Positions 11,440 to 15,485 of a stretch of 15,489 bases of DNA are shown here, one piece after another (within the stretch, counting starts at the first letter, position 1; each line of letters opens with the position of its first letter). The stretch comes from Actinomycetes bacterium (GTDB taxonomy: Bacteria; Actinomycetota; Humimicrobiia; Humimicrobiales; Humimicrobiaceae), in assembly GCA_030609215.1 (NCBI GenBank), contig JAUWCR010000004.1:1-15489 (forward strand). Direction: 5' to 3'. Below the pieces are notes generated by a model, which was given only the letters and a program-made list of their open reading frames with translations, was not told where the DNA came from and ran no database searches. The position numbers and the translations under genes were made by a program.

Positions 11440-11483
11440 GTTACGGGTAAGTTACGATTTTGTTAAAAGTATGTTAAATTTAG
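11440..11483 (-). promoter_or_regulatory. Four 11-bp direct repeats upstream of amt (putative GlnR-type boxes)
   Basis: Read on the + strand, four contiguous 11-mers begin GTTACGGGTAA (11440), GTTACGATTTT (11451), GTTAAAAGTAT (11462) and GTTAAATTTAG (11473). GTTAC followed by six bases and a second five-base half site is the form of the actinobacterial GlnR box. The array overlaps the stop codon of the adjacent regulator gene and spans about -38 to -81 from the predicted amt start. Confidence 0.72.
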
Positions 11484-12205
11484 GGGGAGAACATATAACC
11501 AACGTTTCGTACAGTTCTTAACATAGTACTGTAGGGATTATTAATTTTATACCGGAGTCTTCTTATATGAACATCAACAGTTCTGCTACCACCATAAAAA
11601 TCATAATCCCAGATTATGGACAGCAGCTTATCTCTTGAAAATACTTTATTTTTATTTTGAAGTAAAAATTTTAAAAGCTCATATTCTTTAAAAGTTAATT
11701 CAACAATTTTTCCATTTATTGTTAGTTCATATTTGTCTAAATCTAAAATTAGTTTGTTAATTACTATGCTATTTTTGGCTGCTGGATTTTTCATATTTGA
11801 GAGTAAATATTTTACCCTTATTAAGAGTTCCTTATTAAGATGAGGATAAAAAAGGAAATCTGCGGATTTTATATTGTTGCTAAATAATAAATCTTGTTGA
11901 TTATAAGATAGTATAAAGAGTTTAGCTATTTCATATTTATTAATTATTCTTAAAATTTTGCTAAAAGAAGGCTCATTATTAGATGTATTTATTATTATAT
12001 CAGAATTTTCTATTTTATTTATATCCAGAATTATCAGTTTTGTGTCTATAGGATTTTTTAGTTTCAATAAAATGTTATAAAGATTATTATACTGTGCCTT
12101 ATATGATATTTTTTTAACCAGCAGCTCATAATTTTCATTTTCTAGTAATTTTTTAATTTTTTCTATATCTTCTTTATCTTTAGAAAAGAGTAATATCTTT
12201 GTCAT
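11480..12205 (-). CDS. OmpR-family winged-helix regulator with degenerate receiver, GlnR-like
   Basis: This 241-residue protein has an N-terminal receiver-like domain (about 1-135) and a C-terminal OmpR-type winged helix (about 146-241). The DNA-binding part is strongly conserved: LTFKEYELLKFL at 170-181, the recognition helix region RTVDVHIRRLRYK at 208-220, and TVRNVGYMF. The motif YDFYGGSRTVDVH closely resembles actinobacterial GlnR as I recall it. The receiver keeps Asp61 at the phosphorylation position. It lacks the acidic pair after strand 1 (reads FSKDKED) and the conserved Lys-Pro (reads YPHLNKE), so normal phosphorylation is doubtful. GlnR is likewise an orphan regulator. No sensor kinase is adjacent. 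It lies 94 bp before amt, whose promoter carries matching 11-bp repeats. A role as nitrogen regulator is inferred from domain, context and sites together. No ribosome-binding site precedes the ATG. Confidence 0.8.
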   Translation of the reverse strand: MTKILLFSKDKEDIEKIKKLLENENYELLVKKISYKAQYNNLYNILLKLKNPIDTKLIILDINKIENSDIIINTSNNEPSFSKILRIINKYEIAKLFILSYNQQDLLFSNNIKSADFLFYPHLNKELLIRVKYLLSNMKNPAAKNSIVINKLILDLDKYELTINGKIVELTFKEYELLKFLLQNKNKVFSRDKLLSIIWDYDFYGGSRTVDVHIRRLRYKINNPYSTMLRTVRNVGYMFSP

Positions 12206-12413: not shown

Positions 12414-12441
12414 TTGACAAATAGAAATTAAATGATATTCT
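12414..12441 (+). promoter_or_regulatory. Sigma-70-type promoter for the glutamate synthase genes
   Basis: A perfect -35 TTGACA (12414-12419) is separated by 16 bp from TATTCT (12436-12441), which carries a TGN extension (12433-12435). Transcription would begin near 12448, giving a leader of about 175 nt before the first gene. The leader contains the paired stem-loops and terminator described separately. Confidence 0.7.
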
Positions 12442-12470
12442 TACTTACTATAAAAATTAAATAAATATTT

Positions 12471-12522
12471 TCTTGTTTACATAAAGATGTGTAAATAAGG
12501 AAAAAGGCAAAGAAGCCTTTTT
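12471..12522 (+). ncRNA. Two tandem stem-loops in the leader, putative ANTAR antiterminator target
   Basis: Stem-loop 1 pairs 12471-12482 with 12489-12500: 12 pairs including three G-U wobbles. Its hexaloop is AAAGAT (12483-12488). The first and last loop bases can also pair, leaving loop AAGA. Stem-loop 2 pairs AAAAAGGC (12501-12508) with GCCTTTTT (12515-12522) and has hexaloop AAAGAA (12509-12514). ANTAR-domain antiterminators (NasR, EutV, AmiR and NitR types) recognise exactly this arrangement: two adjacent hairpins with six-base loops, A at position 1 and G at position 4, the second overlapping a terminator. The right arm of stem 2 is also the left arm of the terminator 12516-12543, so the two folds exclude each other. 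The regulator protein is not in the window. No meaningful leader peptide is present. Confidence 0.78.
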
Positions 12523-12550
12523 AAGTAATGGTGCTTAAAAAGGTTTTTTT
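12516..12550 (+). terminator. Intrinsic terminator (attenuator) before glutamate synthase genes
   Basis: CCTTTTTAAG (12516-12525) pairs perfectly with CTTAAAAAGG (12534-12543) across an 8-nt loop and is followed by seven T residues (12544-12550). It lies after the promoter and 72 bp before the first start codon. It would therefore stop transcription before the genes unless stem-loop 2 forms instead. Confidence 0.88.
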
Positions 12551-12622
12551 ATTTAAATAGAAATATTTTAAAGATATTAGTTATAAATAATATTATATTA
12601 GAAAATTTACAGGTATTATAAA

Positions 12623-13864
12623 ATGTCTGAAATTGAATATAGAGAATTTAAAAAAAATCTAATAGAAGACAAGGAAGAGTTTGAGCGGTCATGTAGAAAT
12701 CCATCAGGATGTGCGGTTTTTGGAGTAATGAATGAGGGCGGCAAAGCCTTTAGTGGAAGTATGGTGATGGAAGGAATATCTATAATGCATGAGCGATCAA
12801 ATGGTCTTGGTGGTGGTTTTGCGGCATATGGAATATATCCTCAATTTAAAGAAGACTGGGTATTTCACCTTTTTTATGATGATATTATTTCAAAAAAGCA
12901 AACAGAAGATATTATAGCTAAGGATTTTAATATCTTATTTAGTGAAGAGATTCCAACCAGTAAAGTAAGTTCTATAAAAAAGTCCCCAATAATTTATAGA
13001 TACTTTTTAAAGATAAAAAATAATTCTAGATTTAATGAAGTTGATATAAGCAAAAGGAGTTCTAGTAATCTGAATTTAAAGAGAATTTTAAAACAGAGAG
13101 AAGAAACTTTTATTGTAGAGTTTGTTATGAAAATAAATAGTCAAATAAAAGGAGCCTATATTATATCAAGTGGGAAAAATATGGGAATTTTTAAGGGTGT
13201 AGGTTACCCTGAAGATATTGGAGAATTTTTTAAAATTGATGAGTATAAAGGATATTTATGGATCTCTCATGGAAGGTTCCCAACAAACAGTGTTGTATGG
13301 TGGGGCGGTTCGCATCCGTTTGGTTTGTTGAACTGGTCAGTGGTACATAATGGAGAGATTTCATCTTATGGAACAAATAAAAGGTACGTTAGTGGATTTG
13401 GATATGAATGTACGCTTTCTACAGATACTGAAGTAATAACGTATTTATTTGATTTACTGGTAAGGAAGCTTGGAGTAAATTTAGAGATTATCCATATGAT
13501 TTTAGCTGCTCCATTATGGGAAGAGATAGAATTAATGGATGAAGATGTGAGGGAACTATTAAAAGCTCTTCGTATATCTTATAGCAGTGCATTATTAAAT
13601 GGGCCTTTCAGTATAATAGTGGGGAATAATAATTATATGTATGCATTAAATGACAGGATCAAGTTAAGACCCATGGTTGCAGCAAAAAAAGGTGATTATC
13701 TTTTTGTTTCCAGCGAGGAGGCTGCTATAAGGGGGGTTTGCATATCTCCGGATATTTTATGGCATCCAAGGGGAGGAGAACCTGTTATAGGGCTAATAAA
13801 TAAAAAAGGTAGCAATGCAGTAGTTAGTAGTAAAAATAAGTCTAAGATTTTAGATAGAATATAG
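12623..13864 (+). CDS. Glutamate synthase glutaminase subunit (class II glutamine amidotransferase, archaeal-type split form)
   Basis: This 413-residue class II (Ntn-type) glutamine amidotransferase releases ammonia from glutamine for glutamate synthesis. The probable nucleophile is Cys30 in PSGCAVFGV, so about 29 residues precede it and would need removal to expose the cysteine amine. Other active-site motifs are HGRFPTN at 216-222, HNGEI at 242-246 and STDTEV at 266-271. The signature HERSNGLGGGFAAYG marks the stand-alone glutaminase of split glutamate synthases. A segment of about 75 residues (near 105-180) is lysine-rich and variable. AGGT lies 8 nt before the ATG. The FMN subunit starts 85 bp downstream. 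Expression is probably set by the leader attenuator. A generic amidotransferase role is less likely, given the neighbour. Confidence 0.9.
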   Translation: MSEIEYREFKKNLIEDKEEFERSCRNPSGCAVFGVMNEGGKAFSGSMVMEGISIMHERSNGLGGGFAAYGIYPQFKEDWVFHLFYDDIISKKQTEDIIAKDFNILFSEEIPTSKVSSIKKSPIIYRYFLKIKNNSRFNEVDISKRSSSNLNLKRILKQREETFIVEFVMKINSQIKGAYIISSGKNMGIFKGVGYPEDIGEFFKIDEYKGYLWISHGRFPTNSVVWWGGSHPFGLLNWSVVHNGEISSYGTNKRYVSGFGYECTLSTDTEVITYLFDLLVRKLGVNLEIIHMILAAPLWEEIELMDEDVRELLKALRISYSSALLNGPFSIIVGNNNYMYALNDRIKLRPMVAAKKGDYLFVSSEEAAIRGVCISPDILWHPRGGEPVIGLINKKGSNAVVSSKNKSKILDRI

Positions 13865-13949: not shown

Positions 13950-15485
13950 ATGGCTTTAAAATTAACTCAATCTGAATTTGAGATAGAAAGAGATATTGAT
14001 AAATGCATATCTTGTCAGGTTTGTGTAAGACAATGTTCTAATGACGTACATTATTATGATAGTGAAGATGATATTATTTATAGTGATAATATTAAATGTG
14101 TAGGATGTCATAGGTGTGAAAGTCTTTGTCCTACAGGAGCTATAAGAATAAGTAGAAGAGAGGCTGCTTTTAGGAAAAATTATAATTGGGTTCCAAATCA
14201 ATTAAAAAATATATATAAGCAGGCTGATTCAGGAGGAGTAATACTTGCAGGGATGGGATGCGATAAGCCCTATACGGTATATTGGGATCATATTCTTTTT
14301 AATGCTGCTCAAGTCACAAATCCATCAATAGACCCGTTACGCGAGCCTATGGAAATAAGAACATTTATAGGAAGAAAACATGATAAATTAGATATAGAGA
14401 TTTCAGAAAATAGGCGCGAGGGCAAAAAAATAAAATTAAAAAGAAAATTATTTCCACAGTTAGAACTATCAGCACCCATTATTTTTTCAGCTATGTCTTA
14501 CGGTTCTATAAGCTTTAATGCTTGCAAGTCTCTGGCAGCGGCTTCTTTTAAATTTGGTACTTTTTATAATACAGGAGAAGGTGGATTACATAAAGACCTA
14601 TATACTTATTCTAAAAATACAATTGCCCAGGTAGCATCAGGTAGATTTGGAGTTAATAAAAATTATTTAAGTAAAGTAGCTGCAATAGAAATTAAGATTG
14701 GGCAGGGCGCAAAACCAGGGATTGGAGGACATCTGCCTGGAGAAAAAGTAACTGGCGATGTTTCGATGACCAGAATGATACCAGAAGGTACAGATGCTAT
14801 CTCTCCTGCGCCGCATCATGATATTTATTCTATTGAGGATCTGTCTCAGCTAATTTTTGCTTTAAAAGAAGCTACAGATTGGACAAAGCCAGTAGGTGTA
14901 AAAGTTTCAGCAGTTCACAACATTGCTCCAATAGCAAGTGGTATTGTTAGAGCAGGAGCTGACTTTATAGCTATAGATGGATTTAGGGGAGGCACCGGGG
15001 CTGCGCCTCAGGTTATAAGGGATAATGTAGGAATACCTATTGAGCTTGCATTGGCTTCTGTTGATACAAGGCTAAGGGAAGAAGGAATAAGGCATAAAGC
15101 TTCAGTTATAATAGCAGGAAGCGTAAGATCAAGTTCTGATGTTATAAAAGCTATAGCTCTTGGTGCAGATGCTGTATATATAGGCACAGCAGCACTTGTA
15201 GCAATGGGCTGTCACCTCTGTCAGAAATGCTATACCGGAAAATGTAATTGGGGCATAGCGACACAGGATCCCTATCTTACCAAGAGGCTTAATCCTCAAA
15301 TAGGTGTAAGAAGACTAGTTAATTTACTAAAAGCATGGTCTCTTGAGATAAAAGAGATGCTAGGAGGCGTAGGTATCAACGCTATTGAGAGCCTTAGAGG
15401 AAATAGAGAACATCTAAGGGGGATAAATTTAAGTGATAGAGAACTTGCTATCCTTGGTATAAAACATGCTGGAGAGACGTGGTGA
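13950..15485 (+). CDS. Glutamate synthase FMN/ferredoxin-domain subunit (archaeal-type GltB2)
   Basis: This 511-residue synthase subunit converts 2-oxoglutarate and ammonia to glutamate on FMN. Two 4Fe-4S ferredoxin motifs lie at the N-terminus: Cys19, 22, 25, 29 and Cys50, 53, 56, 60. The central glutamate synthase barrel follows, with GEGGLHKDLYTYS near 209, KPGIGGHLPGEKV from 255, and GFRGGTGAAPQ. The 3Fe-4S ligands Cys421, Cys427 and Cys432 occur in the GCHLCQKC...CNWGIATQDP region. Cys424 is an extra cysteine in that loop. The large-subunit GXGXG and glutaminase domains are absent, so this is the split archaeal type. The glutaminase is the gene before it, and a GXGXG subunit is expected just past the window edge. 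TGA is at 15483-15485, so the gene is complete. The ribosome-binding site AAGG lies 11 nt before the ATG. Confidence 0.94.
   Translation: MALKLTQSEFEIERDIDKCISCQVCVRQCSNDVHYYDSEDDIIYSDNIKCVGCHRCESLCPTGAIRISRREAAFRKNYNWVPNQLKNIYKQADSGGVILAGMGCDKPYTVYWDHILFNAAQVTNPSIDPLREPMEIRTFIGRKHDKLDIEISENRREGKKIKLKRKLFPQLELSAPIIFSAMSYGSISFNACKSLAAASFKFGTFYNTGEGGLHKDLYTYSKNTIAQVASGRFGVNKNYLSKVAAIEIKIGQGAKPGIGGHLPGEKVTGDVSMTRMIPEGTDAISPAPHHDIYSIEDLSQLIFALKEATDWTKPVGVKVSAVHNIAPIASGIVRAGADFIAIDGFRGGTGAAPQVIRDNVGIPIELALASVDTRLREEGIRHKASVIIAGSVRSSSDVIKAIALGADAVYIGTAALVAMGCHLCQKCYTGKCNWGIATQDPYLTKRLNPQIGVRRLVNLLKAWSLEIKEMLGGVGINAIESLRGNREHLRGINLSDRELAILGIKHAGETW

Follow-up and report, generated by a model that had tools for sequence, protein, structure and literature searches.

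The stretch of DNA analysed here (15,489 nucleotides, hereafter the window) belongs to a Humimicrobiaceae genome of the Actinomycetota and carries a split glutamate synthase on its + strand. The glutaminase part, a class-II glutamine amidotransferase of 413 aa, is encoded at 12623-13864 (GATase_2, 47.1 bits), followed at 13950-15485 by the FMN part of 511 aa (Glu_synthase, 475.3 bits), which has a 4Fe-4S ferredoxin-like N-terminus (Fer4_7). The genes further downstream were inspected in two relatives: in G009 they encode a protein resembling ferredoxin together with a pyridine-nucleotide oxidoreductase, and in G014 a GXGXG-domain protein. The - strand carries at 11480-12205 the gene of an OmpR-type regulator, in which only Trans_reg_C and no receiver domain was recognised; it lies beside amt, P-II and glnA genes, and the protein resembles nitrogen regulators of the GlnR type. 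At the start of the window, the translations of two adjacent ORFs (1-558, truncated by the contig start, and 602-2470) both resemble MnmG/GidA, a protein of tRNA modification, as if its gene were present in tandem.

Anatomy and folding of the gltB leader

Both direct reading of the letters and a script found two tandem stem-loops and a terminator on the + strand upstream of the glutamate synthase genes. The first hairpin, P1 (12468-12503), has a 15-bp stem (12468-12482 paired with 12489-12503) with three G-U pairs and the loop AAAGAT (12483-12488), and it includes a 9-bp core (12474-12497) that is conserved in the alignment of relatives. The second hairpin, P2 (12501-12522), has an 8-bp stem (12501-12508 with 12515-12522) and the loop AAAGAA (12509-12514). 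Both hexaloops have A at position 1 and G at position 4 (A1/G4); the loop closing pair is U-G in P1 and C-G in P2. The intrinsic terminator (12516-12550) consists of a perfect 10-bp stem (12516-12525 with 12534-12543), an 8-nt loop and seven T (12544-12550); positions 12516-12522 belong both to its left arm and to the right arm of P2. This terminator was absent from the + strand output of a generic terminator scan, which reported two stems, both on the - strand; the call was made from the letters, a strict motif scan and the folding of RNA prefixes. A promoter is predicted from the sequence at 12414-12441 on the + strand (TTGACA at 12414-12419, a 16-nt spacer, TATTCT at 12436-12441). The earlier note had described the tandem A1/G4 hexaloops, the three wobbles in stem 1, the arm shared with a perfect terminator followed by seven T and the upstream promoter, all of which were borne out. 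Its zero linker between the hairpins requires P1 to be drawn with 12 bp; in the window, 5 nt separate the 9-bp and 6-bp cores that relatives conserve, and the absence of a linker is not a conserved property.

The fold of 12461-12560 had an energy of -34.3 kcal/mol compared to -13.0 +/- 2.4 in shuffles (z = -8.9), and 0 of 200 shuffles were as stable. At 37 C, P1 (12 bp) plus P2 amounted to -20.2, and the terminator to -10.0, or -16.9 with its stem extended into the T run. RNA ending at 12522 or 12530 folded as P1 plus P2, and from 12543 on as P1 plus terminator with P2 replaced; for the full leader, the terminator form has the lowest energy, which is what a protein-free RNA should show. In the P1 loop, an A1-U6 pair is possible, and it is formed in the minimum-energy fold, which leaves a tetraloop. 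The strict scan gave a single match in the real window, the leader itself; when the whole window was shuffled preserving dinucleotides and both strands were scanned, 1 of 200 shuffles had any match and none had both stems of at least 8 bp. A loose two-loop DNA pattern applied to the whole genome was uninformative (688 forward and 562 reverse matches compared to 552 and 440 for the reversed control). No Rfam family matched the leader even at E 5, and the two weak matches in the window fall elsewhere.

Conservation of the leader in the family

Profile searches for gltB and ANTAR proteins were applied to 35 genomes of the family, and a family-specific profile confirmed the ANTAR set. The searches detected a true gltB in 23 genomes and an ANTAR protein in 17; the gltB search also gave weaker matches (E 2e-7 and worse; 34 genomes match at E 0.001), which their scores mark as other amidotransferases and which were excluded. 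Since the terminator criteria were tight, strict scans of the loci missed most relatives, and upstream regions were thereafter read directly, and looser scans and covariance models were applied.

A first covariance model, R1, was built from an alignment of 19 gltB leaders of the family. In this alignment, 89.4% of the cells were paired, and 10 of the 15 pairs had changed on both sides. The number of double-change cells was 41, compared to 14.5 in shuffles and 7-14 in slid controls, and the covariation score was 0.485, compared to 0.276 when shuffled and at most 0.207 when slid. R1 found a gltB leader in 21 of the 23 gltB-positive genomes, 19 of which formed the training set, with G048 and G007 outside it. 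Both the compensatory changes and the recurrence at homologous gltB genes, for which the earlier note had proposed to look, were therefore found. Of the two remaining genomes, G015 has a contig that begins just before gltB, and G010 has P2 and the terminator and no recognisable P1; in G043, the P2 loop is shifted. With 150 first-look candidates scored in each genome, the 12 genomes without a detected gltB gave no match at E 0.01.

In the window's genome, R1 gave one convincing site (150 of 1025 first-look candidates scored), the leader, which as a member of the training set reached the top score among the family sites, 61.7 bits. A match at the start of an argG-like gene (L065) has no terminator and was taken as chance, and the remaining matches in this genome (L066 to L070) had E values of 0.46 or worse. 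Across the phylum, 149 genomes were scanned with stricter filters and at most 40 candidates scored each; matches came from 8 genomes, of which seven belong to the Humimicrobiaceae family set. The eighth (G154) was rejected, as the match sits inside an ORF, and no ANTAR match was found in that genome. On eight further loci (L006, L008-L014), R1 gave nothing below E 0.1. In one of them, L014 (from a record titled Candidatus Geothermocultor quzhuomuensis), weak sites at 14811-14849 and 15445-15491 (13.8 and 17.3 bits) have A1/G4 hexaloops, and no nitrogen gene was recognised there. In another, L010 from a Clostridiales MAG, a tandem hairpin with the loops ATAGAA and AAAGAT, a short P1 stem and an overlapping terminator lies at 1221-1252 just upstream of gltB.

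The letters of the loops were assessed in 46 upstream regions (22 of gltB, 24 of glutamate dehydrogenase genes, gdh), which were searched for tandem hexaloop hairpins with the second arm overlapping a terminator. A1/G4 loops were present in 23 of the 46 regions (15 gltB and 8 gdh, including a gdh match of G021 in the wrong register, its right reading being a 2-bp P2, and a gltB match of G008 that uses a second reading of P1), and each of the other 15 letter combinations in at most 2 regions, 5 in all. The G of loop 1 and the A and G of loop 2 are among the letters that are invariant in the alignment of 19 gltB leaders. Among the 19 aligned leaders, the closing pair of P1 is UG in 11, CG in 7 and UA in 1, and that of P2 is UG in 16, CG in 2 and unpaired in 1. 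TTGAC, followed after 16-19 nt by a -10-like hexamer, was found in 18 of 20 gltB leaders of the family. Hexaloops, P2/terminator overlap and promoter are thus conserved in most relatives with this gltB, the exception within the loops being position 1 of P1, which is a G in 3 or 4 of the 21 leaders (G005, G007, G042 and, in one reading, G008).

The GAF-ANTAR protein found in the genome and its association with gltB

The assembly of the window's genome comprises 1.34 Mb in 217 contigs and is 74% complete. The search for ANTAR domains in this genome gave one match, above the Pfam cut-off, on contig C188 (E 2.4e-20). The ORF codes for 235 aa with a GAF plus an ANTAR domain and extends to within 2 bases of the contig end. 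Its gene lies outside the window and not beside gltB, in agreement with the earlier note, which had placed the ANTAR regulator elsewhere and suggested such a search. On the opposite strand, it adjoins a tRNA-Glu (CTC) gene (L071, 958-1033). The protein shares 68-77% identity with 12 aligned family members, some of which are cut at the N-terminus. The nearest solved structures by sequence are GAF domains, the best being 3ci6 (phosphoenolpyruvate-protein phosphotransferase), and the ANTAR domain of the putative antiterminator 1s8n. Judged from its domains, the sensor of the protein is predicted to be the GAF domain and not a phosphorylated receiver. A link to glutamine or 2-oxoglutarate sensing may be drawn from its GAF likeness.

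Presence and position tie this protein to glutamate synthase. An ANTAR protein was found in 17 of the 23 family genomes with gltB and in none of the 12 without it; Fisher's test, which takes no account of relatedness or missing sequence, gives p = 3e-5. Within several genera, the two are co-present or co-absent; in g7, both occur in G024 and neither in the other six genomes. In 15 of the 17 genomes, the ANTAR gene precedes gltB on one contig, in the same orientation and with 0.6 to 2.8 kb between the matches; in the two exceptions, the window's genome and G015, the two genes are on different contigs. In the loci that were read, the intervening gene is class II aldolase-like or microcompartment-like, as judged from the translations.

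Leaders at glutamate dehydrogenase and a second glutamate-synthase-like gene

R1 also matched leaders that precede glutamate dehydrogenase genes in G015 and G011. A search for this enzyme gave 43 matches in 28 of the 35 genomes, 30 of which were fetched and 24 had readable upstream sequence. Six loci were dropped, due to contig ends (G010, G006), a wrong frame (L126), the absence of the motif used (L132, L133) or a partial gene (L134). By eye, tandem A1/G4 hairpins were found before 16 of the 24 genes, with P2 reduced to two pairs in six cases (G048, G019, G009, G050, G021, G043) and one of the hairpins drawn with a 7-nt loop in two (G017, G042); they were additionally found before L126 (G041). 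They were not found at the other 8 of the 24 upstream regions, the window's own genome among them. Its glutamate dehydrogenase gene (C35) follows a P-II gene, and there is no leader in the available sequence, which starts about 90 bases before the P-II gene.

A second model, R2, was made from 15 dehydrogenase leaders and the leader of a glutamate-synthase-like gene of G007, with no gltB leader included. Its alignment had a covariation score of 0.494, compared to 0.183 when shuffled, and its 6 double-change pairs were not above the 5.3 of the shuffles. The best R2 site in the window's genome is the gltB leader (29.1 bits, E 5.9e-4); R2 also found the gltB leaders of G009, G048 and G019 and, outside its training set, the dehydrogenase leaders of G041, G042 and G014. 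The choice of training rows with A1/G4 makes R2 dependent on that rule, while it owes nothing to the gltB leaders. A second R2 match in the window's genome, C136, the one examined among R2 matches between E 0.01 and 0.3, and a match in G045 (C194) were rejected, as they lie inside an ORF and inside a transposase-like ORF, respectively; the match at L104 has no recognised nitrogen gene alongside.

Tandem A1/G4 hairpins also precede a second gene whose product has a partial Glu_synthase domain, in G007 (L105 1222-1340; R1 and R2), G011 (L176 1366-1407; R2) and G004 (L177 1405-1446; R2). For G011 and G004, it is not clear whether a terminator overlaps P2, and the G004 protein was judged from its translation. 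These results suggest that glutamate dehydrogenase and the second glutamate-synthase-like gene of relatives are probably under this regulator as well. Since its targets across the relatives would be glutamate synthase, the dehydrogenase and the glutamate-synthase-like protein, the regulon would make glutamate.

Between the -10 element and P1, just past the predicted start, the window has an A/T-rich box at 12453-12464 on the + strand (AAAATTAAATAA). At least 11 of its 12 letters were found in 12 of 22 gltB and 7 of 24 gdh upstream regions, compared to 1.1 and 1.8 in 2-mer shuffles. From these counts, the box, AAAATTAAATAT, is a putative element conserved in relatives and common to gltB and dehydrogenase leaders.

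Leaders in ANTAR-negative genomes and alternative readings

Leaders are not confined to genomes with a detected ANTAR protein, as 9 of the 18 ANTAR-negative family genomes keep one (G003, G005, G007, G008, G014, G021, G042, G049, G050). In three of these, it was found at the dehydrogenase gene only (G003, G021, G050), and two of the nine genomes are more than 90% complete (G014, G021). In G014, G049, G042 and G008, the contig with gltB ends within 0.6 kb upstream, so that a neighbouring ANTAR gene could be missing; the upstream sequence of G005 (2.0 kb) and G007 (4.3 kb) holds none. The G at position 1 of the P1 loop is confined to these genomes, as an A stands there in each of the 15 P1 loops that were found at gltB in genomes with an ANTAR protein. 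A second reading of P1 in G008 (loop ATTGAA) keeps A1, and the four of six ANTAR-negative gltB leaders with a G may therefore be three of six; with four, the association of G1 with ANTAR absence has a Fisher p of 0.0025, which is post hoc and ignores relatedness. The change from A to G is consistent with decay after loss of the protein, likewise a post hoc reading.

The leaders in these nine genomes would also be expected if the terminator/antiterminator leader were read not by an ANTAR protein but by a metabolite as a riboswitch, by way of a leader peptide or by another RNA-binding protein. We regard such a reader as unlikely, as what is conserved in the two tandem hexaloops is the A1/G4 pair of ANTAR targets, presence and position both connect the ANTAR gene with gltB, and Rfam holds no family that matches the leader. 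Still less likely, and in our view improbable, is a DNA operator in which the OmpR-type regulator encoded at 11480-12205 binds inverted repeats in front of an ordinary terminator, the RNA shape being incidental. The gene of this regulator, with its lack of a recognised receiver, adjoins the site near amt, P-II and glnA, and P1 amounts in the DNA to an inverted repeat of 15 bp, as this reading would have it; pairing is, however, maintained via G-U pairs and double changes, the invariant letters of the loops are needless for an inverted repeat in DNA, and the P2/terminator overlap is conserved. That the structure is a product of chance or a relic without present function in the window's genome is hardly credible, as all four key loop letters are intact, the R1 score is the top one of the family (though that of a training-set member), shuffles almost never yield such a site and an ANTAR gene is present, even if the MAG is fragmented and the changed P1 loop of some relatives without a detected ANTAR gene is what decay would give.

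We conclude that the leader is very probably an ANTAR target RNA that would act by antitermination and be opened by the GAF-ANTAR protein. As a working model, this ANTAR reading is well supported by the sequence, its conservation and covariation and the association with the protein; binding, antitermination and the sensed signal are inferred.

Discussion

In the model that we propose, transcription would start at about 12448, as deduced from the promoter, and the nascent RNA is computed to fold into P1 and P2 first. Without active protein, the terminator at 12516-12550 displaces P2 in the computed folds, and transcription would stop near 12550 before gltB. By analogy to EutV, NasR and AmiR, an active dimer of the GAF-ANTAR protein encoded on C188 would hold both hexaloops so that P2 stays closed; with P2 held, the terminator could not form, and the split glutamate synthase would be transcribed. 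The GAF domain probably senses a small metabolite that reports nitrogen status, for which glutamine or 2-oxoglutarate would be a guess. A more far-reaching version, which we put forward tentatively and consider rather doubtful in its entirety, has the one GAF-ANTAR protein as a dedicated one-component switch of the family: it would sense nitrogen through GAF and antiterminate most glutamate-forming enzymes (split GOGAT, glutamate dehydrogenases and the second glutamate-synthase-like protein), the leaders would share the 5' A/T box, and upon loss of the ANTAR protein, A1 of P1 would drift to G.

The closest known case comes from the Firmicute Desulfotomaculum reducens. The tandem A1/G4 hexaloop motif was defined by Ramesh et al. 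2012 (PMC3369931; this and the other articles cited are drawn on in part), where it is reported, as a prediction, at the glutamate synthase genes of D. reducens, and glutamate and glutamine synthases are among the listed ANTAR targets. The likeness lies in the tandem A1/G4 hexaloop hairpins before glutamate synthase and in a regulon related to glutamate metabolism (PMC3369931); here, in contrast, the organisms are uncultured Actinomycetota with one GAF-ANTAR protein, and glutamate dehydrogenase is included in relatives. The word dehydrogenase is absent from the main text of that article, and the portion of it used here names no sensor domain for the D. reducens regulator. Since ANTAR control of glutamate synthase was already predicted in Firmicutes, the leader belongs to a known kind of switch. 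Literature searches, with supplements and most subscription papers outside their scope, gave no report of ANTAR control of glutamate synthase for this lineage. The novelty suggested in the earlier note may thus hold for the lineage: ANTAR control of glutamate synthase as such had been predicted for a Firmicute (PMC3369931), and what seems new is a glutamate-tied ANTAR switch in this lineage, for which the articles used here describe none.

The leader resembles that of eutP in Enterococcus faecalis, which is bound by EutV and also has two A1/G4 hexaloop hairpins with P2 exclusive with the terminator (PMC3369931). The linker there is 5-12 nt, compared to 5 nt here on the conserved cores, and EutV is a phosphorylated response regulator, unlike the GAF sensor here (PMC3369931). 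With NasR and the nasF leader of Klebsiella, the system shares a one-component ANTAR regulator with a fused sensor and tandem A1/G4 hexaloops; NasR has a NIT nitrate sensor and acts on nitrate assimilation genes, as opposed to GAF and glutamate formation here (PMC7496416). C-G loop closing pairs are reported for NasR, where SELEX showed a preference for them (PMC7496416), and for EutV, where altered P1 closing pairs abolished eutP induction (PMC3369931), whereas the gltB leaders here have mostly U-G. This difference speaks against the ANTAR reading, C-G closing being a reported preference and not part of the definition of such RNAs.

In Clostridium acetobutylicum (NitR) and C. thermocellum (Clo1313_2030), an antiterminator or ANTAR gene is likewise tied to ammonia assimilation, and Clo1313_2030 sits in a cluster that holds the GOGAT genes (PMC4676874). 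Clo1313_2030 is annotated as a response-regulator ANTAR protein, an antisense RNA is mentioned for NitR, and the portion of that article used here describes no tandem-hairpin leader. A survey of actinobacterial ANTAR RNAs (2021) found dual stem-loops in Actinomycetota, few of them upstream of or overlapping terminators and about 37% overlapping the RBS or start codon, whereas terminator overlap is usual here (PMC8164766); glutamate is absent from its main text.

Terminator-type ANTAR control would thus be usual in one actinobacterial family, compared to few cases in the published survey. With one ANTAR protein, a few leaders and natural variants with altered loop letters, the family offers a simple test system. 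The finding connects a compact RNA switch with what is probably its only regulator and with a coherent set of genes for making glutamate, in a lineage represented here by MAGs alone.
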